Below are positions 3,563 through 23,449 of a stretch of 25,022 nucleotides of DNA, one piece after another. A program made the position numbers and the translations under genes. The notes beneath the pieces were generated by a model, which saw only the letters and a list, made by a program, of their open reading frames with translations, searched no databases and was not told the origin of the DNA. Position 1 is the first letter of the stretch. Every line of letters begins with the position of its first letter. The stretch lies in the IMG/VR virus record IMGVR_UViG_3300036715_000976, positions 1 to 25,022 of that record. The stretch is one strand, 5' to 3'. The stretch comes from a virus.

Positions 3563-6299
3563 TGAACTCGACCTCAATGTAGTCATATCGGCCACGTACG
3601 CCGAATACCAAGAGGCCATGGAACAGGCGGCGGAGGCTACGCAATCAAGCGCGGAAGCTATCTCTGCCAGCCTGAATGAAGTCGCCACCTCCGCACGCGA
3701 GATTCCTATCGTCTATGGTCGAATGGCGTCCTCTGCGCAATCCGCCGCCGCCTCGGTACAGACTCTGGACGCTGCCCTTCCCTCCCTGACAGCCGCCGAA
3801 GAACAGAACTTGTTAGTGACGCATGAACTCTTTCTGGCCCGCGAAGCTAACGCTGAACAGATGATGGGCCAAATGGTACAGGCGGCGTCGGTGGAGGCAG
3901 AAGCCTGGGAAGAAAACGCTCGTAGGACCAGAGCGGCCATTGAAGAGCAAACTACCGCTGTCACGACTGGCGGAATCAACATAGAAAACATGATGATGCG
4001 GATGGTCGCCCGCATGGCTATCATGATGACGGTCATTGCGGCCATCCGTGGCGTCATTTCGGCTATAGGCGACGCAATCAGTGAGGAAAAGGACTTCTAC
4101 GATGCGGTAGAGACCAGCACCGAAGTGTTAGCAAGACAAGGTGACGCCGCCGATATTAATGAGACCAGAATAAGCAACTATGGCCGGGCTGTACAAGAGG
4201 CAGGCATAAAGGAAGCGGATTTCGCGACTATCCTTCGTGACGTAGTGCCAGTGGCCGGGAGCACGGATAATGCGCTAAACGCCGTTCAGCTTGGGCTCGA
4301 CCTGGTAGCATCTAAAGCATTGAGCGCGAAGGAAGCCGGGGCGTTACTCAGGGGATTGTTGGAGGGTGATGAAAAGTCCGTCAACAAGGCGCTGAAGAAT
4401 CTTGGCATAAACGCATCAGACGCGCAAGACGCGCTTGAAAAGCTACATGCCGCGTTTGGTGGCGGCCAGGCGGGGGCAGAAGCAGAGATTAGTACTCTTG
4501 ACCGGCTTAAACAGGCGTTGAATCTGGGCGGCGTTTTCAAGGATGCGGCCTCCGTGGTCGGTCTAGACACGCTCTGGATGACCCAGTCCGAAAAGCTCAA
4601 AAAGCATGTCACCGACCTGCAAAAAGAGGTCGAGAGGTTAAACAAGACAGCGGCGGCTGGAAAAGACAATCCGACCCTTGCTGGTTTAGCTGCTAGTAGC
4701 CAATTGCCGATTGTGACAGCGCAGTTACATGAGGCTGAAGAGGCGCTGAGAAAGTTCGAGGAGGCCAAGAAGGCCGCCGAGGAGAAGGGTGGGAAAGCAG
4801 AGGAAACGCCCATAGCGACCAATGACTCGCAGTGGGACCAGTATAATGCCGCGTTAGACCGCATGGATGAAGAGCGTAAGGCCGCAGCCGAGAAAAGGGC
4901 GCGGGAGCTAGAGCAAGAAAACAACAACTTGGCAAAATCTGAGCTAGATGTGGCTCATGCAACGGAGCAGGCAGCGGCGGCTCAACTGAAAAAAGCACAG
5001 GACATGAGCGCCGTTGATGATGCTTCCAAGAAAGCACTCGCAGCGCTCGAAGAAGAGAAAACGAAAGCTCTCGCGGTAGCAAAGGCTGAAGAAGACCGGG
5101 CCCTGGCAGAGGCTGAAAAGAATGGTGGCGATATAGCCAAGGTCCGTGAAACTTACGAAAACAAGGTGCTGGTTATAACGCAAGAATACGCGAATAGGCG
5201 CACTGCTATACAGGAAGAGGCCGCTCAGAAAGAGTTGAGCATACAGGAAGAGGCGGCCAAGGGAAATGAGGCTATAGCTAAATCAGAGTTGGACATTGCC
5301 AAGGCTTCAGAGAAAGAAGCGAGCGAGCAATACCGCATAGCAGCCGGAGCGAACGCTATCGAGGAAGGCCATATCAAGGCACAGGCTGAGATTATCAAGA
5401 GTATATCAGATATCCATGACGCAGCGCAGGCAGTGGAGACAGCGCTTACGGAAGAGCAGAACAAGGCCATTGCGGTACTGCACGCCGAGGCCCAGCAGGC
5501 GATTATCGAGGCCAAAAAGAGCGGGGCGAGCGTTGACGCCGTAAAGAAAGAGTACGCTAACAAGGAAATCGCGCTCAAAAAAGAGACGGCGGCCAAAATT
5601 GACGCCATTGAAAAAGAGTCTGCGAACAAAATCAACAAGATTGGCGACGACGTAGAGAAACACAAGGAGGAACTCAACCGCCGAGAGTTGGCTGCCGCTC
5701 ACCGAACGACTAGCGACCTATTGGGATTAGTGGGCGAGTATGGTGGGAAGACCGGCCAGACACTAGCGCAAATAGGCGGCTTCGCAGAGCAGATGTACCA
5801 GCTTTGGCGTGACGCTTCGGAACTATTCCACGCATTCGAGGAGGCCCGAAACACGAAGACGGCCATACAAGGTATTGCCACAACAAAGACGACAGCGGCG
5901 GCGCAAATAGCGGCCAGCGCGAGCGCGGGCGCGGCGGCAGCGGGTGCGTCTGTCGCTCAGGACGGCCCTTACGGGTGGATGATGGTTCCGGCTGTGGCAG
6001 CGGAGACATTCTCGGAATTGATGTCATTCCAGGCGAGTGTCGTGGCCGCTCAAGGCTATGAAGTGCCGTCGTATGCATCGCCGATTGCGCAACTGCATCC
6101 GCGTGAAGTAGTTTTACCAGCGAATATTTCGGAGGGACTGAAGCGCATGATAGCTATGGGCGCAGGCGGGGCGCAGAATAACTACATCAATATCCAAAGC
6201 ACTGACGCGAAGAGCGTCAAGCAGTTGTTCATGGAGCATAAGGGGTCTTTGGCTTCAGCATTGCGCAGCCATGCAAGAGATTTCGGGAGGGTGCAGTGA
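3555..6299 (+). CDS. Tape measure protein
   Basis: This 914-residue protein is the longest in the window and directly follows the chaperone, as tape measures do. It sets tail length and is ejected into the envelope during infection. A Met/Ile/Val-rich hydrophobic stretch lies at about residues 146-172 (NMMMRMVARMAIMMTVIAAI). A long Ala/Glu/Lys coiled-coil spans about 360-710. A typical C-terminal piece follows (HPREVVLPANISEGLKR, then NNYINIQSTD). Inside the coiled coil two related segments of about 115 residues begin with AKSELDV (residue 460) and AKSELDI (residue 575). The start is GTG at 3555 with CGGAG about eight bases upstream; the gene overlaps the chaperone extension by eight bases. 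No lytic peptidase motif is seen. Confidence 0.9.
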   Translation: MPDELDLNVVISATYAEYQEAMEQAAEATQSSAEAISASLNEVATSAREIPIVYGRMASSAQSAAASVQTLDAALPSLTAAEEQNLLVTHELFLAREANAEQMMGQMVQAASVEAEAWEENARRTRAAIEEQTTAVTTGGINIENMMMRMVARMAIMMTVIAAIRGVISAIGDAISEEKDFYDAVETSTEVLARQGDAADINETRISNYGRAVQEAGIKEADFATILRDVVPVAGSTDNALNAVQLGLDLVASKALSAKEAGALLRGLLEGDEKSVNKALKNLGINASDAQDALEKLHAAFGGGQAGAEAEISTLDRLKQALNLGGVFKDAASVVGLDTLWMTQSEKLKKHVTDLQKEVERLNKTAAAGKDNPTLAGLAASSQLPIVTAQLHEAEEALRKFEEAKKAAEEKGGKAEETPIATNDSQWDQYNAALDRMDEERKAAAEKRARELEQENNNLAKSELDVAHATEQAAAAQLKKAQDMSAVDDASKKALAALEEEKTKALAVAKAEEDRALAEAEKNGGDIAKVRETYENKVLVITQEYANRRTAIQEEAAQKELSIQEEAAKGNEAIAKSELDIAKASEKEASEQYRIAAGANAIEEGHIKAQAEIIKSISDIHDAAQAVETALTEEQNKAIAVLHAEAQQAIIEAKKSGASVDAVKKEYANKEIALKKETAAKIDAIEKESANKINKIGDDVEKHKEELNRRELAAAHRTTSDLLGLVGEYGGKTGQTLAQIGGFAEQMYQLWRDASELFHAFEEARNTKTAIQGIATTKTTAAAQIAASASAGAAAAGASVAQDGPYGWMMVPAVAAETFSELMSFQASVVAAQGYEVPSYASPIAQLHPREVVLPANISEGLKRMIAMGAGGAQNNYINIQSTDAKSVKQLFMEHKGSLASALRSHARDFGRVQ
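4932..5621 (+). repeat. Internal duplication in the tape measure coiled coil
   Basis: Two consecutive segments of about 345 bases (from 4932 and from 5277) encode related protein units. Each begins AKSELD(V/I)A, then has an Ala/Glu helix, then a KAIAV/KALAV block followed by AEAQQA/AEEDRA, and an YANK/YENK element near its end. Protein similarity is visible by eye while the DNA has diverged, so this is an old duplication. Such units change tape length and thus tail length by a fixed step. Confidence 0.6.
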
Positions 6300-7228
6300 G
6301 CACTCCGACTATCGAGTCAATCTTCCCGGCCAGTTGTAGCCCCGACGGTGGCACGTCGGTAACGATAACAGGCACTGGATTTACGGGTGCTACGGCGGTC
6401 TTTTTTGGCGATATCCCAGCCGTGTCTTTCCATGTCAATTCCGACACGCAGATTGTCGCTATAGCGCCAGCCGAGCCGTTTGGAAGCATAGTCAACGTGA
6501 CTGTTAGGGGCGTTCCTCTTCCGCCTCCGACAAATGTGACCTGCACTGTAGGTTCTGGGACCTTGCCAACAGGCACCTACTATTATCGGGTTACTGCAGG
6601 CAACGACTTCGGCGAAACGACACCTTCAGCTGAAGTGTCTCTGGCAATCACGGGGCCAGCGGGCGTGAGCATTAACTGGGATGCTGTTACAGGGGCGCTC
6701 TGGTATGTAGTCTATGGCCGGAGCAGTGGTGGTGAGTTACACCTCAACTCGTGCTCTAACCCACCTTGGCTTGATGACGGCTCTTCTACTTCTGACCCTG
6801 ACGCCCTTATGCCGACTGTGAACACTGCGGCCACAGCTAGTAACGGCTGGCCTATCTGTTTCGGCGCCGCTTTCCCGGAGTTCCCGCTATCGAATAAGAG
6901 CGTCGTTTATGGTCTAGCGGTCAAGAAGACGCCAGAGTTTTCGAGTATCGTTCAGCGCGGTATCAACGGCGGACCGGCGTTAGTTATCGGGTTCTTTCCA
7001 GCGCCGATTTACCACTATGAGATTCCGGTTGATTGTTTGACGCCTGCGCAGTTGGCGACCTTACGGGCCTTTTTCGAGTTAATGCGCGGTCAGTTAACGC
7101 CGTTTTCGTTTATTGACCCCGAAACGAATAGCCCGGTCACTGTGCGCTTTGAGACAGACCAGCAAGAGTTCGACAGGATAACAATGGGCCGTTGGAGCGG
7201 GGCGGCTATTAAATTGGTGACAGCATGA
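6296..7228 (+). CDS. Distal tail protein with N-terminal IPT/TIG and FN3-like domains
   Basis: This 310-residue protein appears to have three parts. Residues 1-72 are a classic IPT/TIG immunoglobulin-like domain (SPDGGTSVTITGTGF, then VFFGDIPA). Residues about 75-160 resemble a fibronectin-III-like unit (GTYYYRVTAGNDFGE, ending INWDAVTGALWYVVYG). The C-terminal part (about 190-310) resembles DUF2460-type distal tail proteins: FPEFPL, AVKKTPEFSSIVQRG, YHYEIPVDCLT and PFSFIDPETNSPVTVRF. The distal tail protein joins the tube to the tail tip. The extra Ig-like domains may bind cell-surface glycans. GTG start at 6296 overlaps the tape measure stop, with GGGAGG at 6285-6290. Confidence 0.7.
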   Translation: MSTPTIESIFPASCSPDGGTSVTITGTGFTGATAVFFGDIPAVSFHVNSDTQIVAIAPAEPFGSIVNVTVRGVPLPPPTNVTCTVGSGTLPTGTYYYRVTAGNDFGETTPSAEVSLAITGPAGVSINWDAVTGALWYVVYGRSSGGELHLNSCSNPPWLDDGSSTSDPDALMPTVNTAATASNGWPICFGAAFPEFPLSNKSVVYGLAVKKTPEFSSIVQRGINGGPALVIGFFPAPIYHYEIPVDCLTPAQLATLRAFFELMRGQLTPFSFIDPETNSPVTVRFETDQQEFDRITMGRWSGAAIKLVTA

Positions 7229-8064
7229 AAGCGACTGACACTGCATTCCTGAATTGGCTGAAGACTACAACTGCCTTCTGGTACGCCGACCTGTACACGT
7301 GGACTTTGGCAGATGGCACTCTTAGCCGAGGGACTAGCTGGCCGGGTGGCATATCCCCAGACTGGCAAAATATTTGGATTATCAGCACCAGTTCGATGAA
7401 ATACTCTTGCGACTTATCCGTAGATTCCGTCAAGGTAACTATCGCGCTGCCTGCTGATGGGCTATGCCCTTCTAGCGATTCTTCTGCCTACTTGCGCGCG
7501 GGCTATTTTGACGGGGCGCGTCTCCTGGTACAACGGTTATTTATGGCCGCGCCTGGGTTGGCATTTGATTCTCGCGACAATCCCATTTCGCTTTTTTCGG
7601 GGCGCGTTTCTAACGTGCAACTAGACGGAACGAAGGCGGAAATAGAAGTCAAGTCAGATTTAGAACTACTCAATATCCAACTCCCGCGAAATCTCTATGG
7701 GCCGCAATGCAGGTGGACATTGTTTGACGGCCAGTGTGGGCTGAACGCCGCTAATTATCAAGTAACAGGGACGATAGTTTCCGCAACGGCGACGCATATA
7801 GTATTGAGCAATATCGGCGGCAAGGCTGACCACTGGTTTGACCAGGGCCAGTTAACGGTGAATGGGTTGTCGACCAATGTGAAAACGCAGGTCGGGGCTG
7901 ACATAGACATCTTCCCGCCCTTCGCAGTCGCGCTGCGACCAGGCGATGCCTATACGATTCTGCCCGGCTGTGATAAAACTCTAGCGACCTGCGAATCCAA
8001 GTTTAGCAACAGGCTCAATTTCGGCGGGACTCCCTTTGTGCCGAAGCCGGAGACAGCATACTAA
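7225..8064 (+). CDS. Tail-tip hub protein, DUF2163/BR0599 family (GTA gp13-like)
   Basis: This 279-residue protein has the signature C-terminal half of the DUF2163/phage BR0599 family: NLYGPQCRWTLFDGQCGLN, then LPGCDKTLATCESKFSN and LNFGGTPFVP. In the Rhodobacter gene transfer agent the homologous gp13 is a hub component, and the conserved cysteines there bind an iron-sulfur cluster; four such Cys are present here in the same context. The N-terminal half contains the beta segments of the family (FWYADLYTWTLADGT). ATGA overlap with the previous gene and TAATG overlap with the next show a tightly coupled tail-tip operon. Confidence 0.85.
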   Translation: MKATDTAFLNWLKTTTAFWYADLYTWTLADGTLSRGTSWPGGISPDWQNIWIISTSSMKYSCDLSVDSVKVTIALPADGLCPSSDSSAYLRAGYFDGARLLVQRLFMAAPGLAFDSRDNPISLFSGRVSNVQLDGTKAEIEVKSDLELLNIQLPRNLYGPQCRWTLFDGQCGLNAANYQVTGTIVSATATHIVLSNIGGKADHWFDQGQLTVNGLSTNVKTQVGADIDIFPPFAVALRPGDAYTILPGCDKTLATCESKFSNRLNFGGTPFVPKPETAY

Positions 8065-8492
8065 TGACTGAGCAAGAAGAACGCCAGCGAGTTGTAGAGA
8101 TAGCCAGGTCCTGGTTAGGGACGCCCTATCTGCACCGTGGCAACGTCAAACAGTGCGGGGCTGATTGTGCATGGCTCCTCATAAAAGTCTTCGAGGAAGC
8201 CGGGCTCGTAACAGGTGTGGACCCCGGATACTATCCTCCAGATTGGCCGATGCACCAAGAGCATTCTATTTACCTCGACTTCGTGGAGCGATATTGCAAG
8301 CCGGTCGAAAAGCCGCAAGCCGGGGATATTGTACTTTATCACTTTGGGAAGTGTATCAGTCATGGCGCGATTGTCTCAAATTACCCTTACGTGATACACT
8401 CGCTATACCGGCAAGGCGTTGTCGAAACGGACCTTGAACATGGCCCGTGGGCCTCGCGTGTGGCGGGATTCTGGAGCTATTGGGGGAAATAA
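8064..8492 (+). CDS. NlpC/P60 cell-wall peptidase of the tail tip (GTA gp14-like)
   Basis: This 142-residue NlpC/P60 cysteine peptidase has SWLGTPYLHRG before the nucleophile region CGADCAWL (Cys35), and a GDIVLYHF then SHGAIV segment placing the catalytic His at residue 100. A third polar residue is probably the His in YVIHS. In gene transfer agents and many siphophages a protein of this kind sits between the DUF2163 hub and the large hub and cuts peptidoglycan during entry. Length matches the family. The start ATG overlaps the previous TAA, and the stop overlaps the next ATG. Confidence 0.85.
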   Translation: MTEQEERQRVVEIARSWLGTPYLHRGNVKQCGADCAWLLIKVFEEAGLVTGVDPGYYPPDWPMHQEHSIYLDFVERYCKPVEKPQAGDIVLYHFGKCISHGAIVSNYPYVIHSLYRQGVVETDLEHGPWASRVAGFWSYWGK

Positions 8493-11194
8493 TGGGGTTC
8501 ATCTTCGGGCATTCGCATTCTATGGCAACGCAGCCGCCCGACCTCAACGGGATGCACATGCAGAACTCCGCCTACGGTCTCTGCATTCCGATTGTCTATG
8601 GGGCCATGCGCGTTTCTATGAACGTAATCTGGGCTACTCCCGTGTGGGCTGTTGGTACGACACACGAGGAAGGCGGGAAGGGCGGCGGCGGCCAGAGCGA
8701 AACTACCTATGAATACTATATGGGAATCATTGGTGGCTTGTGTGAAGGCCCGATAAGAGGTGTCAAGAGATACTGGCAGGGCAAAGATGCTTACCCCTCC
8801 CTGGCGGGCGGCCATTATGGAGATGTTTTCTGGTTCATCCACAATGGGACGCAAGGCCAGGCACAAAGTGCCTATTTCAACAGTTCCTACCAATCTCAGG
8901 GGCTGGGCTATAATTCATTGGCTTATTGCTTCCGGCCCAATGTCTATTTAGGCAATAGCCCCGACTTGCCGAATTGCTCGTTTGAAATTGAAGGCAAAGG
9001 GTGCGGCAATGAGCAAGACCTAGCTTGGCCCGACGCTCTGCCCTCATTTATCATCCATGATTTGTTGACCAACCCGCAATATGGCGCAGGCTTCCCGACT
9101 AGTTCATTTGCTACAGGCTGGGGCGGCGGCTCTATTGATGCCTACTGTGATGCCGTGAGGCTGTATATTTCGGCTTCATTCGACACGCAACGCAGCGCGG
9201 CTGATATAGTCAAGGAGTTATGTTTAATCTGCGATGCCGCTCCGGTATGGACTGGAGTTGCTCTAAAAGTTCTCCCATTGTGTGACGCGCCTGTTTCGGG
9301 CTTCACGCCCGATGTGGCTCCGGTGGCTGATATTACTGAATCTGACATTTTGGAGCCTATTCAGATAACACGGACTACCCCCGCTGATGCGTACAATTCC
9401 CAGCAGGTAGAATACCTGGACCGCTCGCATGATTATAATCCCACAATAGTTGAGGCACGCAACGATGCCGCCGTTAGGACCTACGGGCTACGCCCCGCGC
9501 CGCCATTGCAGTTGCATGAAATCACTACTGTCAACGTAGCAATGCAGGTGGCACAGCTTTCTATTCAGCGTAGCATCACGCTGTTGAATAAGTACACTTT
9601 GAAACTATCGGCCCGATGGCAACTCCTAGACCCGATGGATATCATAGCGGTCAGCGATGCGCGGGAAAACATGAGCGACGCGCTTTTGCGGATACAGACG
9701 GTAACGCTCAACGAGGACGGCTCTGTCAGTATCGAGGCGGAAGACTTCATTCCTGGTACGTACACGCCTGCAATGTATGCGTCGCCCACGGTGGACCCAG
9801 GCGGTTCTCATGCCAGCGACACGACCGCAAACTGCGCTGCCCCCGTTATCTTCCCGTCGACAGCCGCTTACTCCCCGAATCAGCGTGAGTTGTGCTTAGC
9901 GACAGCAGGCCCACAGCCGCTAGAAGCCTGGACCCCCGGCCATAGTTACAGCGTTGGGAATATCGTTACCTATGGCGACCTACTATACATTTGCATAAAA
10001 GCTATCGTAAGTCAGCCCATAATAATAGGCTCTCCACTTCCCGCCTGTTACATCGCGCCATACCAACTCGCAGAGTACTGGCAAGTGTGTAGCTGGGGCG
10101 GGTGCAATGTGTGGGTGAGCACGGATAATCAGACTTACGCCAAGGTCGGGACTATCATGCAAGCGGCGCGTTATGGCAAACTCGTCGCGGAGCTTCCTCC
10201 GGGAGCAACGTTCCCCGCAGCGGATACTACGTATACCCTTAGCGTTGACCTCTCGCAAAGCGGCGGAAAGCTATTAAGCGCAAGCCAAGCTGACGCGGAT
10301 GCACTGAGAACGCTCTTGTGGGTGGACGGTGAATACTTGGCCTATGAGACGGCGCAACTAAGAAGTGTTGCTCCAACAGGACCGAATCTTTTCGACCTGA
10401 CCTACTTGCAGCGTGGCGTCTATGATACTACTTCCAAGGACCATTTGGCGAATGCCCCGATTGTGCGTTTGGATTCCGCCGTGCTTCACGTACCTTGCAA
10501 TGTAGCAACTGGCGCGACGGTCTATGTGAAATTGCAGTCATTCAATGCGGCTGGGGGAGCCCTGCAAGACCTTTCCACTCTTACGCCATACACTCATGTG
10601 GTGGACCTGCCTGCTATCGCTGCCCCGACCTCACTGGCTATTGTACAGACGGGGCAGTCACAGGCGACATATCTAGCACAGTGGACGGCGAATAGGGCGC
10701 TACGGACCCTGAGCGTCTTCCAGCGGCCATATTCAGCGACGCCAGGGAATCCTGATACTGATTCCGCCTGGACGCTGGCGCAGACGTATTCACTGGCCAC
10801 TGCGGCCCCGGATGGTTCAGTTGGTTGTGGCGCGCTCTCGCAAGCATTCACTCTCGGAGTGCTGGCAGGCCAAAGCAACGTGGCGGTACATCTTACTGAT
10901 GCCTGGGGGGAGAAATCCGCCTGGGTGGTCATAGACGGGGAGCGGCCATCAACAGTGGTCACTGCTGCCTATACGATTCAAGCGGTGGACTACATGATTC
11001 TGGCCGATGCGACAGCGGGGGCCTTTACTGTGACGTTGCCTGCCAGTGCGTCAACAGGGCAAAGCTACGTCATACAGAAAACGGACACGAGCGCGAACGC
11101 GGTAACGGTAAATGGCGTGGCATTAAACACTCAGAATGCCACAGTTACCTGGACATGGAACGGGTCAGTATGGATTATGACGGGGAGGTTTTAA
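8492..11194 (+). CDS. Central tail hub / tail-tip host-specificity protein (gpJ/GTA gp15-like)
   Basis: This 900-residue protein begins with MGFIFGHSHSMATQPPDLNG and a transmembrane-like or buried segment (PIVYGAMRVSMNVIWATPVWAVG), followed by the GGLCEGPIRGVKRYW element common to tail hub proteins. Residues about 288-385 match the phage-tail_3 region (ITRTTPADAYNSQQVEYLDR, then LDPMDIIAVSD). Later segments are FN3-like, and residues about 821-900 form a beta module (AYTIQAVDYMILADATAGAFTVTLP) often seen at fibre tips. The TAATG start at 8492 with a G-rich ribosome site is preferred to an in-frame GTG at 8447, which lies deep in the peptidase gene. It follows the GTA-like order exactly. Confidence 0.85.
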   Translation: MGFIFGHSHSMATQPPDLNGMHMQNSAYGLCIPIVYGAMRVSMNVIWATPVWAVGTTHEEGGKGGGGQSETTYEYYMGIIGGLCEGPIRGVKRYWQGKDAYPSLAGGHYGDVFWFIHNGTQGQAQSAYFNSSYQSQGLGYNSLAYCFRPNVYLGNSPDLPNCSFEIEGKGCGNEQDLAWPDALPSFIIHDLLTNPQYGAGFPTSSFATGWGGGSIDAYCDAVRLYISASFDTQRSAADIVKELCLICDAAPVWTGVALKVLPLCDAPVSGFTPDVAPVADITESDILEPIQITRTTPADAYNSQQVEYLDRSHDYNPTIVEARNDAAVRTYGLRPAPPLQLHEITTVNVAMQVAQLSIQRSITLLNKYTLKLSARWQLLDPMDIIAVSDARENMSDALLRIQTVTLNEDGSVSIEAEDFIPGTYTPAMYASPTVDPGGSHASDTTANCAAPVIFPSTAAYSPNQRELCLATAGPQPLEAWTPGHSYSVGNIVTYGDLLYICIKAIVSQPIIIGSPLPACYIAPYQLAEYWQVCSWGGCNVWVSTDNQTYAKVGTIMQAARYGKLVAELPPGATFPAADTTYTLSVDLSQSGGKLLSASQADADALRTLLWVDGEYLAYETAQLRSVAPTGPNLFDLTYLQRGVYDTTSKDHLANAPIVRLDSAVLHVPCNVATGATVYVKLQSFNAAGGALQDLSTLTPYTHVVDLPAIAAPTSLAIVQTGQSQATYLAQWTANRALRTLSVFQRPYSATPGNPDTDSAWTLAQTYSLATAAPDGSVGCGALSQAFTLGVLAGQSNVAVHLTDAWGEKSAWVVIDGERPSTVVTAAYTIQAVDYMILADATAGAFTVTLPASASTGQSYVIQKTDTSANAVTVNGVALNTQNATVTWTWNGSVWIMTGRF

Positions 11195-11616
11195 TGAGGC
11201 GCTTCGGGCAGTTTGTGATTGGGATTCTCTTGTGTGTGTACGTCATGGCGCAGGCTACGCCAAACGTGGGAATCGTTCCCGCGCCGGTGAATCTCACCAT
11301 AGAGCAAGGCAACACCTGGTCAGCATCGTTGACGTTCAAGGACGGGAACGGCGCGGCTATTGACCTGACTTCCTACACCTTCACTGCGCAGGTACGACCG
11401 TCCTATTCGTCTTCGACGGTGACGGCGACGTTCACCTGCACGGTGACGGACCCCACACACGGTGTGGCAACATTGAGCCTGACCAGTGACCAAACGGCTG
11501 CATTGCCCGCTCCCTTTACCGGCCAGTGGGATTTGTGGATGTCCACTACCAGTCCCGCCACTGCCCTGCGAGTCATGGCGGGGAATGTAACGGTCGTTCC
11601 GAGAGTGACGAGGTGA
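11194..11616 (+). CDS. Secreted-type tail-associated protein, beta-rich, hypothetical
   Basis: This 140-residue protein starts at the TAATG overlap (11194) with GGGGAGG at 11182-11188. The N-terminus is a Sec-type signal peptide: RR, a hydrophobic core (FVIGILLCVYVM) and an AQA cleavage-like site near residue 21. The rest is a beta domain of a type found beside tail-fibre genes (IEQGNTWSASLTFKDGNG, IDLTSYTFTAQVR, GVATLSLTSDQTAAL and a final VTVVPRVTR). Its position between hub and fibre suggests a baseplate or fibre-linked subunit, but the signal peptide is odd for a virion part. I do not know a named family with certainty. Confidence 0.75.
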   Translation: MRRFGQFVIGILLCVYVMAQATPNVGIVPAPVNLTIEQGNTWSASLTFKDGNGAAIDLTSYTFTAQVRPSYSSSTVTATFTCTVTDPTHGVATLSLTSDQTAALPAPFTGQWDLWMSTTSPATALRVMAGNVTVVPRVTR

Positions 11617-11618
11617 AC

Positions 11619-13376
11619 ATGAAACGGCTAATCATTCTCTGCTTTGCTCTACTCGCGCTTCGGACTCTCGCCCAGACCTGCCCGGTGAACGTGTCTGTTG
11701 CCACGTCTCCGGTGTACAAAATCACCGTGGCGCCTTTGACGCCCAATGCAGTAACGCCCATCACCGTGACCGTTTCGAGCGCGCAGAATGTCGCAGTGAC
11801 GATCAATCCGAATGTTCTCGGCCCCGCAATGGACCCGCGTTTGCCCGCGCCCGGTACGAGCGGGAATGTCTGTACGAGCGACGGGTCAAAGTGGATTTCC
11901 GCTGCACCTACGTCAGGGGGTATCACCGGCCCCACGGACTCTACCTTGACACAGACAGGTACGACCTTGGGCCTGAATCTGGCGAACGCGAACACCTGGA
12001 CGGTCGGTCAGGCAATAAATAGCGACGATGGGCTGACGTGCCAGTCACGCTCTAATTCAGACAATGTGTCGGAAGTCACCCCGGCCTTCCTTTTTGTCCT
12101 GAATGGCGGCGCTCGCAGTTGGCTCAAGGGCGACAGGTTGTCATTCAACAATGGCCAATATTATACGGACCTATTGCCTACGTGGGGAGGGGACACTTAT
12201 TCCGGCGTGTACCTGCCCTCTCATAGCGGGACCTTGGCCCTCACGAGCGATGTCATTCCCCATGTTACCCCTGGCACTTCCGGCAACGTCCTGACCTCCG
12301 ACGGCTCGAACTGGACCAGCACAACTCCCAGCGTGGCGTGGGGGAATGTCACTGGAACGCTCTCGAATCAGACCGACCTTGCTACAGCTTTGGCCGCGAA
12401 GGAGCCCAGCATTGCGCCTGGGACCGCGTCTCAATACTGGCGCGGTGACAAGACCTGGCAGCCGATTAACTGGTTGACATCCGAGAGCGACCCCGTGTTC
12501 ACCGCGTGGAAAGCGACCACTCCGCCGCTGTACACCGAGAGCGACACTCTTGCCACGGTCACTGCACGCGGCGCGGCGACTAGCGTTGCGTCCAGCTTCA
12601 CCGGCGGGCTTTCTGTGTCGGCTGTCTCCGCTGGCAGCCTCAACGTTCTGGCACCGACCACCAGCACGGTCGGCGCAATCATCAAAGGCGCGGCAGGCCA
12701 GACGGCTGACCTGCAACAGTGGCAGGATTCCACGGGCGCGGTGAGGACCAGCATAAGCGCAATTGGGGATGTTATTGTTCATGGGACTGGGTCTCACCCA
12801 GGTGGAGACGGCCCGCTCAAAATTGTGGATGCGAACAATAAAACGATATTTGCCGTCGGTGATTACACTGGGGCCACAGAAGGAGTAATTTATCTTTGGG
12901 CTCCTGCTGGACAAGGATATGGTTCGGGCATTACTTTCTACTCCGCTGGCGGCACAAAAATTGGGCTGTTCCAATTAGATGGCGCTGGCAATATGGTCTT
13001 CCGCAATAGCAATGCGGCGGGAACGTTCTTCGACTTCAATACGTCTGGCCTCTTCTTCCGAGACCACACTTATACAAAGGTAATGACATTAAGCGAGGCG
13101 GGCAATCTTAATTTTGGAAGTGCCGGTGATGTAGGGTTCTTGCGTAGCGCGACTGGCGTTATGAAAGTGACCGATGGGGGCAGCGGCGACGGCACTATCA
13201 CCGCCAAGAGCTTCCGCTTAAAAGGCTACACTGTAGCCACTTTACCCGCAGGCACGCAAGGCGACACGGCATACGTGACCGACGCGGTCGCGCCGACCTA
13301 CCTTGGCCCGTTGGTCGGCGGCGGTGCGGTCGTGACGCCGGTGTTCTATAACGGCACGGCATGGGTGGCGTACTAA
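11619..13376 (+). CDS. Tail fibre-like protein with N-terminal signal peptide
   Basis: This 585-residue protein has fibre-style low-complexity Thr/Ser/Gly sequence. Two related motifs occur, GTSGNVCTSDGSKW near residue 78 and GTSGNVLTSDGSNW near residue 217. It also has the fibre phrase GTASQYWRGDKTWQ and a C-terminal tip (RLKGYTVATLPAGTQGDTAYVTDA, shortened here to its key parts RLKGY and GDTAYVTDA, then VFYNGTAWVAY). The start at 11619 has GAGG five bases upstream. It encodes a convincing Sec signal peptide, MKRLIILCFALLAL then LAQT. Receptor binding is inferred; no chaperone-type tail peptidase is visible. Confidence 0.7.
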   Translation: MKRLIILCFALLALRTLAQTCPVNVSVATSPVYKITVAPLTPNAVTPITVTVSSAQNVAVTINPNVLGPAMDPRLPAPGTSGNVCTSDGSKWISAAPTSGGITGPTDSTLTQTGTTLGLNLANANTWTVGQAINSDDGLTCQSRSNSDNVSEVTPAFLFVLNGGARSWLKGDRLSFNNGQYYTDLLPTWGGDTYSGVYLPSHSGTLALTSDVIPHVTPGTSGNVLTSDGSNWTSTTPSVAWGNVTGTLSNQTDLATALAAKEPSIAPGTASQYWRGDKTWQPINWLTSESDPVFTAWKATTPPLYTESDTLATVTARGAATSVASSFTGGLSVSAVSAGSLNVLAPTTSTVGAIIKGAAGQTADLQQWQDSTGAVRTSISAIGDVIVHGTGSHPGGDGPLKIVDANNKTIFAVGDYTGATEGVIYLWAPAGQGYGSGITFYSAGGTKIGLFQLDGAGNMVFRNSNAAGTFFDFNTSGLFFRDHTYTKVMTLSEAGNLNFGSAGDVGFLRSATGVMKVTDGGSGDGTITAKSFRLKGYTVATLPAGTQGDTAYVTDAVAPTYLGPLVGGGAVVTPVFYNGTAWVAY

Positions 13377-13387
13377 GGGAGGCGAAC

Positions 13388-13723
13388 ATGGGATACGACC
13401 CAACTACTGAGACCAGGACCGTGGAACGCTACATTCAAGAGATTCAGCTCCACCGCGATAGCGCCACCTGCACGGTATTTGAGGGCATGGGCGAGTTATC
13501 CAGCGAGGTCAACGCGGCGGGACAGCGATTTCACAAGCCGGAATCCAACACGCGCTACGATTTCACCGTGGCGGACATGATAGCGGCTGGGCTTACGCCG
13601 CAGGCTATCCTGTCTCTGGACAACCAGATGCGCGCAATGGCCGAACAGATGGTGGCATGGGCCAAGGCCAAGGCTGAGGCCGAAGCGGCAAAGCAAGCAG
13701 CGCCGGTCACACCGGCACCATAA
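13388..13723 (+). CDS. Hypothetical protein downstream of the tail fibre
   Basis: This 111-residue protein starts at ATG 13388, five bases after a strong AGGGAGG (13376-13382) that overlaps the fibre stop region. The N-terminal half (TVERYIQEIQLHRDSATCTVFEGMG) looks alpha/beta. The C-terminal 50 residues form a helix (MIAAGLTPQAILSLDNQMRAMAEQMVAWAKAKAEAEAAK) ending in a Pro/Ala tail. Small genes here in other phages are fibre assembly chaperones or late accessory proteins; I do not recognise the family, so either role is a guess. Confidence 0.7.
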   Translation: MGYDPTTETRTVERYIQEIQLHRDSATCTVFEGMGELSSEVNAAGQRFHKPESNTRYDFTVADMIAAGLTPQAILSLDNQMRAMAEQMVAWAKAKAEAEAAKQAAPVTPAP

Positions 13724-14102: not shown

Positions 14103-14564
14103 ATGAAATACACACTCGAACGTATAGCACAGAACGAACGGATGACCTGGGGGCGGATGCTCAATCCCGATGGAGACTTTGTCTGTTACATCCTGGAGCC
14201 GGGCACCGTGGGGACGAAAGACGAAAACGGGAAACTCCACCCTTGCGTCCCGCCGGGGACCTACACGGTAGCTTGGTATTGGTCCCCGCGCTTTGGCCGT
14301 GAAATGCTTTCCCTGATTGATGTCCCTGGACGGACGGGAATTGAGATTCACGCGGGGAACAAGGCGTCCGACTCATTGGGTTGCCTCATGCCTGGGCGAA
14401 AAGGCACGTTCAATGTCTCAACGGGCGAGTGGCAGATTGTCGGAGGTGAGAGCCGACCTGCTTTGGAATCGTTGATTGCGGAATGGTCGCCGCTGTTAAA
14501 GGGTGAAGGAGTCAAACTGGACATTCAGCACAGGGTCTATGACCCGGAAAGGAGTTCTCAATGA
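14103..14564 (+). CDS. DUF5675-family protein, lysis-module candidate
   Basis: This 153-residue protein matches the DUF5675 pattern: an opening LERIAQNERMTWGRML, then CVPPGTYTVAWYWSPRFG, and the signature RTGIEIHAGN followed by DSLGCLMPG. The His-x-Gly-Asn plus Ser-x-Gly-Cys pair looks like the catalytic region of L,D-transpeptidase (YkuD-like) enzymes; that resemblance is an inference, not an established activity of this family. The neighbours are membrane and envelope genes, so a role in cell-wall cutting or remodelling at lysis is plausible. The stop overlaps the next ATG (ATGA at 14561). Confidence 0.7.
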   Translation: MKYTLERIAQNERMTWGRMLNPDGDFVCYILEPGTVGTKDENGKLHPCVPPGTYTVAWYWSPRFGREMLSLIDVPGRTGIEIHAGNKASDSLGCLMPGRKGTFNVSTGEWQIVGGESRPALESLIAEWSPLLKGEGVKLDIQHRVYDPERSSQ

Positions 14565-15094
14565 AACGAATCGCAGTGATTCTGTCGTTGTGCTTTCTGG
14601 CGGCTGTACCGATTCTGGCACAGGACGTTTGGCTAGGGACCGGCCATCTGTGGTACCCCGCGCAAGGCAATTATGCTGCCTCCGCCTGGGATACTCAGTG
14701 GCAGTTGCAGGCCGGTGTGGACTGGCGAACTGGCAAGCATCTCTCATTCACCCTCGCATACGCGCAGGACACGCTCAAAATTGAGAGTTGGGCCGAAAGC
14801 CATAACTTTACCCAGCTTCCGCCTTCCGGCCTGAAATACGGCCTCTGGGACGCGGGAGCGGGCGTTCCTTGGGATGCTGGCAAGTGGACAATCACCCCGG
14901 AAGCAGGATTCAGCATTTTGCACTACGCCGGCCACGACACTGGGGGCTTGTACGCGGGACTCTCGGTGGCGTATAATTTTACCTCCCACTGGTACGCTGG
15001 GGCGGAAATGAAATACCGGCACCTTCCGAACGTTTCCGGTGTTGGCGTGGCGAACATTGCCGAAACGGCTCTCCGTATAGGATACCGATTCTGA
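14561..15094 (+). CDS. Outer-membrane beta-barrel protein
   Basis: This 177-residue protein has a clear Sec signal peptide (RIAVILSLCFLAAVPILA, cleavage near AQ). It is followed by alternating amphipathic strands rich in Trp/Tyr/Gly, such as WQLQAGVDWRTG, LSFTLAYAQDTLKI, AGLSVAYNFTSHWYAGAEMKY and the terminal ALRIGYRF. The last residue is Phe preceded by aromatic/hydrophobic alternation, the recognition signal for the BAM machinery. About eight strands fit the length, comparable to the OmpX/Lom class. It sits inside the lysis module and overlaps both neighbours. Roles as a superinfection-exclusion, adhesion or envelope-disrupting protein are all possible; none is shown by sequence. Confidence 0.8.
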   Translation: MKRIAVILSLCFLAAVPILAQDVWLGTGHLWYPAQGNYAASAWDTQWQLQAGVDWRTGKHLSFTLAYAQDTLKIESWAESHNFTQLPPSGLKYGLWDAGAGVPWDAGKWTITPEAGFSILHYAGHDTGGLYAGLSVAYNFTSHWYAGAEMKYRHLPNVSGVGVANIAETALRIGYRF

Positions 15095-22757: not shown

Positions 22758-22970
22758 ATGTTCAGATGCCCGCATAATGGTGTTAATATAACAACTCAAA
22801 CGTGTCTGAATCTCCAGGAAACATGGGCGGCGGGCGAGCGGGTGGCATGTGCTGGTAGACACTGTCATCTCTACACGTGCGATATCGACAACAGTGAGGC
22901 CGCACGGCGGGAGTGGATTGAGCAACACTGCGGAGTGCGGCAGCTATTGATGAAGGAGAAAACGCCATGA
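22758..22970 (+). CDS. Five-Cys mini-protein, paralogue 1
   Basis: This 70-residue protein has cysteines at 4, 16, 31, 36 and 41, spacing C-x11-C-x14-C-x4-C-x4-C, with shared landmarks CP at the start, CL..QE.W, and C.G..C....CD. The gene at 23693 encodes the same Cys spacing exactly. A zinc-binding or redox fold is likely. After the Cys domain a helix (SEAARREWIEQHCGVRQLLM) ends the protein. AAGGAGGTG gives strong initiation. The stop overlaps the RlpA-like start. Confidence 0.7.
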   Translation: MFRCPHNGVNITTQTCLNLQETWAAGERVACAGRHCHLYTCDIDNSEAARREWIEQHCGVRQLLMKEKTP

Positions 22971-23449
22971 AGCGCCTTTGGTGGCTACCCGCTATTTTCG
23001 CCCTGGCCTGTGTGGGCCTGTACCTGTGGATGGCCCGCCTCGCCAAGGATTTACAGACGCTCGATGTGGCCGGCCCGGACCCTGCCGCTGTGGCGCGAAC
23101 TGCCAAAGAGATTGAGCAATTCAATGCGGAAAGCGCAGCTTTGCAGGCAGCCGTTGACCGGCGGCTGGCGTCCTGGTACGGCAAGGAGTTCGACGGGAAG
23201 AGAACGGCCAACGGTGAGACTTTCGACCGCTGGGCTCCGACCTGTGCGAGCCTAGACTATGCGCCTGGAACTTGGCTCAAAATCGTGGACGTGAAGACGC
23301 GGCGCTGGGTGATTGTGCGGGTCAATGACTCTGGACCTTACGTCCCTGGGCGGTCCATTGACCTATCCGAAGGCGCTGCGCATCAGCTTGGGATGCGCGA
23401 GCGTGGTGTAGCAATCGTGGAAGTCAAAGTTCTGGAGGTGAAGCCATGA
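22967..23449 (+). CDS. Membrane-anchored RlpA-like double-psi barrel protein
   Basis: This 160-residue protein has an N-terminal membrane anchor (residues about 5-23, LPAIFALACVGLYL) and an RlpA-like barrel at about 68-158: ASWYGKEFDGKRTANGETFD, VIVRVNDSGPYVPGRSIDLS and AAHQLGM. RlpA proteins are lytic transglycosylases acting on denuded glycan strands. Glu84, Asp87 and Asp121 of the active-site region are kept, but the His of the usual TAAH motif is Ser95 (TCAS). The Cys in ALAC is not a good lipobox and hydrophobic residues continue past it, so an uncleaved anchor is more likely. The gene sits among early genes, away from the lysis module. Confidence 0.85.
   Translation: MKRLWWLPAIFALACVGLYLWMARLAKDLQTLDVAGPDPAAVARTAKEIEQFNAESAALQAAVDRRLASWYGKEFDGKRTANGETFDRWAPTCASLDYAPGTWLKIVDVKTRRWVIVRVNDSGPYVPGRSIDLSEGAAHQLGMRERGVAIVEVKVLEVKP

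Follow-up and report, generated by a model that had tools for sequence, protein, structure and literature searches.

The material analysed here, which we call the window, is the whole of a linear IMG/VR fragment of 25,022 bases. A gene for a collar-like protein and one for a fibre-like protein sit in it between the tail hub gene, which ends at 11194, and a late block encoding a DUF5675 protein and small membrane proteins; the hub gene stop and the collar gene start share one base. The initial annotation had placed a small beta protein and a fibre, both with signal peptides, at 11194-13376, and these coordinates are exact for both genes. The features of the region are as follows, ^ marking a predicted cleavage site.

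8492..11194, + strand: tail hub or tip protein (Phage-tail_3, Rcc01698_C, phrog_1101), without a leader
11182..11188, + strand: Shine-Dalgarno sequence GGGGAGG of the collar-like gene, spacer of 5 nt to the ATG at 11194
11194-11616, + strand: collar-like gene, 140 aa
11194..11250, + strand: predicted Sec/SPI signal peptide of the collar-like protein, MRRFGQFVIGILLCVYVMA^Q, mature start QATP
11251..11616, + strand: mature collar-like Ig-type beta-sandwich, T5 p132 / LtfC-like (PF23926, phrog_1084)
11610..11613, + strand: ribosome site GAGG of the fibre gene (ATG at 11619), overlapping the end of the collar-like gene
11619-13376, + strand: fibre gene, 585 aa
11619..11672, + strand: predicted Sec/SPI signal peptide of the fibre-like protein, MKRLIILCFALLALRTLA^Q, mature start QTCP
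11673..13376, + strand: mature fibre-like protein, 567 aa
13206..13373, + strand: fibre C-terminal domain YTVATLP..VTDA..PTYLG..GGG..PVFYNGTAW, common to hundreds of viral fibres
13388..13723, + strand: small leaderless protein, also following the fibre in contigs L023, L024 and L025, with a diverged copy further downstream in L003
14561..15094, + strand: outer-membrane beta-barrel protein (OMP_b-brl, under the Pfam cut-off), signal peptide MKRIAVILSLCFLAAVPILA^Q

The barrel protein is possibly a member of the same envelope-directed set as the collar-like and fibre proteins. It is 90% identical to a copy in contig 3300037010_000803 (56 kb), and the placement of its gene downstream of the fibre is reminiscent of lambda lom. 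Elsewhere in the window, a DUF2460 tail protein with an IPT/TIG domain at its N-terminus is encoded at 6296-7228 and, distant from the late block, an RlpA-like DPBB lytic transglycosylase domain follows an N-terminal hydrophobic segment at 22967-23449. The idea that the two genes of interest are host genes at a contig edge was considered and rejected, as they lie inside the late operon, right after the hub gene.

Signal peptides were called with a strict tripartite n/h/c rule written for this analysis. Both window leaders pass it, having K/R in the n-region, a hydrophobic h-region (maximum 9-mer hydropathy of 3.3 and 3.5) and small residues at -3/-1, so that the proposed signal peptides are borne out, and the comparison with relatives described below agrees. 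Both leader ATGs also have the good ribosome sites ascribed to them, GGGGAGG for the collar-like gene and GAGG for the fibre gene. The rule likewise accepts five classical E. coli leaders (OmpA, MalE, PhoA, LamB and Bla), but it is passed by 11% of composition-shuffled leaders (782/7000) and, when any start up to 50 codons in is allowed, by 8.7% of other ORFs (100/1153). Since the rule is thus permissive, the case for the leaders is one of comparison rather than of score. Leaderless alternative starts in the window genes were considered and rejected, none of the in-frame candidates near the mature N-terminus having a Shine-Dalgarno sequence. Together with the leaders of two collar relatives, which are unlike at the DNA level but retain signal-peptide form, this excludes chance. 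Taken on the sequence evidence, the collar-like and fibre genes begin with what we regard as real, if predicted, Sec/signal-peptidase-I export signals. The Gln at +1 after both predicted cleavage sites is a feature of the Bacteroidetes Q-rule; frequent Gln at +1 is also seen in some bacteria outside Bacteroidetes (PMC5837995).

The mature part of the collar-like protein matches the LtfC-like family (PF23926) just over the curated cut-off and, among PHROGs, phrog_1084 together with two that are labelled 'L-shaped tail fibre protein assembly'. A profile built from nine collar sequences and run against the PDB with hmmsearch retrieves p132 of DT57C and T5 with E-values of 2.5e-6 to 7e-6. The AlphaFold (AF2) model, with a pLDDT of 82.7, predicts an Ig-type sandwich from about residue 29 and a disordered leader with low pLDDT at residues 4-25, and the top four Foldseek matches of this model are all T5/DT57C collar chains (E-values of 1e-9 to 1e-10). 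Profile and model thus agree in making the mature part homologous to p132, the collar protein of T5 and DT57C. In T5, p132 is a twelve-membered collar that anchors the L-shaped fibre; its ring encircles the p140 ring, and a mutant lacking the fibre lacks p132 too (PMC10038345), which implies that the module is separable. The window protein may similarly form a dodecameric ring binding the fibre N-terminus. From homology and adjacency, the window pair is best read as an anchor and its fibre, the collar-type protein probably holding its neighbour.

The leader appears as an add-on to this family. Among 76 distinct rows of the family from viral contigs, 74 are leaderless, starting exactly at the first strand of the beta-sandwich, and only L002 (the same contig as L025) and L003 resemble the window in bearing leaders; a leaderless state is thus usual, though not defining, for the p132 / LtfC-like family, and these three depart from it. 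Their collar leaders, MRRFGQFVIGILLCVYVMA, MKRAAFIVLMLFYVLAFA and MRRVSLGIILAFMALLALA, differ in sequence, yet each is a signal peptide: the leader DNA is no more alike than shuffles, while the whole proteins are 82-83% identical. The fibre leader, by comparison, is near-invariant in the same three phages, and the leaders are evidently maintained in evolution. The initial annotation had named starts conserved only downstream of the leader as evidence against it. Such starts are indeed the norm in the distant family, but the close relatives all keep a leader upstream, which shows that it was added in a particular lineage and that its start has not been mis-called. The cassette of collar and fibre moves: in L025 and L003 the tail genes that precede the pair are unrelated, and in L023 and L024 the fibre is found without the collar, between capsid and connector-type genes. 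In these last two contigs the leader-bearing fibre gene (L023 1762-3441, L024 4577-6853) lies outside the tail block, among capsid and head-connector-type genes. In L003 a third signal-peptide protein, MKRLILALAILVALPMAA^Q, without a Pfam match, is encoded directly after collar and fibre at 7694-8290. Searching bacterial genome contigs with the collar alignment found no relative.

Leaders also recur among fibres. Signal peptides are present in 25 of 54 distinct proteins sharing the fibre C-terminal domain, against 100 of 1153 other ORFs (Fisher p = 3e-12) and 26 of 346 in a comparison set of ORFs of at least 300 aa. In 24 of the 25 leader-bearing fibres the cleavage region contains [AGSC]^Q, compared with 13% of comparable stretches (p = 1e-20). 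Most seem to come from Bacteroidota phages, in which the fibre gene is often the final tail gene ahead of lysis-type genes. Export is not required for this class of fibre, since the other 29 of the 54 are leaderless. Fibres whose N-terminus is of another kind bear leaders as well, of RKLLWLLVALTISIAVFP type in L023 and L024, with a weaker site and without the usual A/G/S^Q after it, and MKNALLRLILLIALPCLA^Q in L282 and L283; L281, a relative of the shaft, is leaderless.

In bacterial genome contigs the C-terminal domain was found at six loci, including Mucilaginibacter, Flavobacterium and Gluconacetobacter, none of them closely related to the window. Two are in phage-like surroundings, namely a prophage-like region of Mucilaginibacter sp. 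(L175) and a phage-like region of Gluconacetobacter asukensis (L174). At a third, in Mucilaginibacter aquariorum (L171 5384-7162), a lone signal-peptide-bearing gene with this domain stands amid housekeeping genes with no phage genes near; it is possible that this is a domesticated fibre or the source of the phage version. Among isolated phages the domain was seen only in Burkholderia phage Bm1. The matches of Bacteroidota leader-bearing fibres to isolated phages cover shaft sequence, as in the leaderless gp46 of Flavobacterium phage 11b, and none covers the leader region. No solved structure was found to match the fibre or its C-terminal domain.

Evidence that exported proteins may belong to virions comes from Cellulophaga phages, where virion status is given by GenBank record notes reading 'structural protein, experimental MS/MS'. 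About seventy MS-annotated proteins of six of these phages were examined, and only eight carry leaders. Four are consecutive in phi10:1 (gp091-094, with leaders MKKILLLLLFISASLSA^Q, MRKLLLISLFLTSVLSFG^Q, MKKTIYILSILLLTISGVSA^Q and MKHTISIVLFFILSLGLNA^Q), three are in phi18:3 of the Pachyviridae (gp085-087, two of them versions of phi10:1 proteins) and one is gp08 of phiSM; in phi10:1 and in phi18:3 they are encoded side by side. All eight have Gln after the predicted cleavage site, and none has an in-frame Met soon after it. The leaders of the gp093/gp086 pair differ by six synonymous and no non-synonymous changes. The same blocks also encode pectate lyases with leaders (phi10:1 gp095, phiSM gp09), but these have no MS note, indicating that export alone does not give rise to a virion annotation. 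The tested MS-annotated virion proteins of phi13:1, phi18:1 and phi40:1 are all leaderless, so the feature is not general in Cellulophaga phages. 'Exported' and 'in the virion' are therefore not alternatives, and by analogy with these proteins export signal and virion membership appear to coexist. The leader-bearing cassette is shared by phi10:1, of the Assiduviridae, and phi18:3 (L266 19501-22792 and L272 12545-16584). Directly upstream of the leader-bearing fibres of phi10:1 lies the gene for gp090 (L266 16893-17243), a small leaderless MS-annotated protein. Small leaderless proteins precede leader-bearing fibres in L032, L037 and L056 as well, so that gp090 could be a cytoplasmic docking partner.

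That the export of virion proteins is puzzling, as the initial annotation put it, is confirmed, and to our knowledge tailed phages otherwise complete their tails in the cytoplasm, which argues against export. Of the three solutions it offered, the coating of released virions fits best because signal-peptide-bearing tail-region proteins are MS/MS-annotated as virion proteins in Cellulophaga phages; host surface decoration and decoys fit less well. Our main reading, to which we assign a probability of about 0.5, is that collar and fibre are exported by Sec, folded in the periplasm and docked on finished particles at lysis. A T5-type fibre module, comprising a p132-like anchor and a fibre, would have acquired Sec signal peptides on both partners. 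Both proteins would be translated late, translocated by Sec and processed at A^Q by signal peptidase I, then fold and pair in the periplasm, apart from the cytoplasmic building of heads and tails. Once the lysis genes opened the cell, finished particles would meet the periplasmic pool and the module would dock on the tail, so that tail assembly would end outside the cytoplasm with components routed through Sec. Leaders on fibre and anchor alike are predicted by this model. The window hub could bind the host by itself, and the collar-fibre module may therefore be accessory. Against the model, outer-membrane vesicles can occur in virion preparations, and the MS-supported proteins are not homologous in sequence to the window fibre, with which they have in common the type of leader, the place in the tail region and the logic. 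The results suggest that in some phages tail fibres are exported and are not added to the particle until the cell bursts. We hold somewhat more tentatively, at just short of even odds, that several unrelated tailed-phage lineages route fibres (here with a collar anchor) through Sec, completing the virion extracytoplasmically at or after lysis.

The main rival is a different function for the same export signals, which we consider clearly less likely. The exported collar and fibre would reside in the envelope, occupying the receptor from the periplasm or at the surface, with any presence in virions incidental; like T5 Llp and the lambda-type Lom and Cor proteins, they would prevent superinfection and the loss of progeny on debris. 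The signal peptides themselves are consistent with this, as is the presence, a few genes further on, of an outer-membrane barrel gene that also has a signal peptide, and the free-standing gene of M. aquariorum implies that proteins of this kind can work for the cell in its envelope. In phages of Porphyromonas gingivalis, moreover, proteins with Q-rule leaders have been proposed as outer-membrane modifiers (PMC10367356). Blocking of this kind leaves unexplained, however, why the anchor partner should be exported, and why, in three isolates, MS/MS notes list eight proteins with leaders as structural components of the virion. However the fibre question falls, the barrel protein is a good candidate for an envelope blocker. 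The two functions might also be combined, with receptors masked by the periplasmic pool before lysis and most of the pool ending up in virions afterwards. Such dual use would draw on the data for both docking and blocking and on the late-gene position beside lysis-type genes, but we think it improbable.

Two further explanations dispense with export. The leader could be a hydrophobic tail-attachment segment, kept in the cytoplasm or inner membrane during assembly, in keeping with the virion annotation of analogous proteins in isolates and the existence of leaderless fibres of the same class. We find this very unlikely, since small residues at -1/-3 and Gln at +1 (24/25 fibres, 8/8 MS-annotated proteins) are signal-peptidase features that would be meaningless for a packing helix, and collar leaders have been exchanged without sequence similarity. 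Still harder to credit is an artefact, through mis-called starts or host genes at a contig edge. The source is a metagenome fragment of 25 kb and distant collar relatives do start downstream, but strong Shine-Dalgarno sequences stand at the leader ATG in the window, L002/L025 and L003, and close relatives are found in other viral contigs.

The absence of signal peptides has been used to recognise variable tail proteins as being of phage origin (PMC6199706), a criterion that breaks down if fibres are exported. Phage assembly would then also involve periplasmic folding and signal peptidase, and host-range proteins could be mixed between co-infecting phages at lysis (phenotypic mixing). The part of the literature covered yielded no account of Sec leaders on virion proteins of tailed phages. 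The MS-supported Cellulophaga phages offer a present means of testing fibre export.

Among known systems, the closest is that of p132 (LtfC-like, PF23926) and the L-shaped fibre pb1 in T5 and DT57C. The mature small protein is alike in sequence and fold, and in both cases the anchor gene adjoins the fibre gene, but a leader is absent from T5 p132 and from 74 of 76 viral relatives, whereas the window has Sec leaders on both partners. The window fibre, unlike the collar, matched no solved fibre in the searches run. The P. gingivalis phage proteins (PMC10367356) share with those of the window a phage origin, predicted secretion through the host Sec system and Gln at +1, but they are described as unknown proteins that may modify the outer membrane and not as tail or virion components. 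The proteins of Cellulophaga phi10:1, phi18:3 and phiSM are, like the window's, fibre-like tail-region proteins with an A/G/S^Q leader, in a cassette that has passed between phi10:1 and phi18:3, members of different families; they have a Bacteroidota host and no detected sequence homology to the window proteins, so the likeness is one of analogy. Finally, T5 Llp, lambda Lom and phage Cor resemble the window proteins in being phage products with export signals encoded beside receptor-binding or tail genes, but they are small lipoproteins or barrels and not parts of the virion. For membership of that class the barrel protein at 14561-15094 is a better candidate than either the collar or the fibre.
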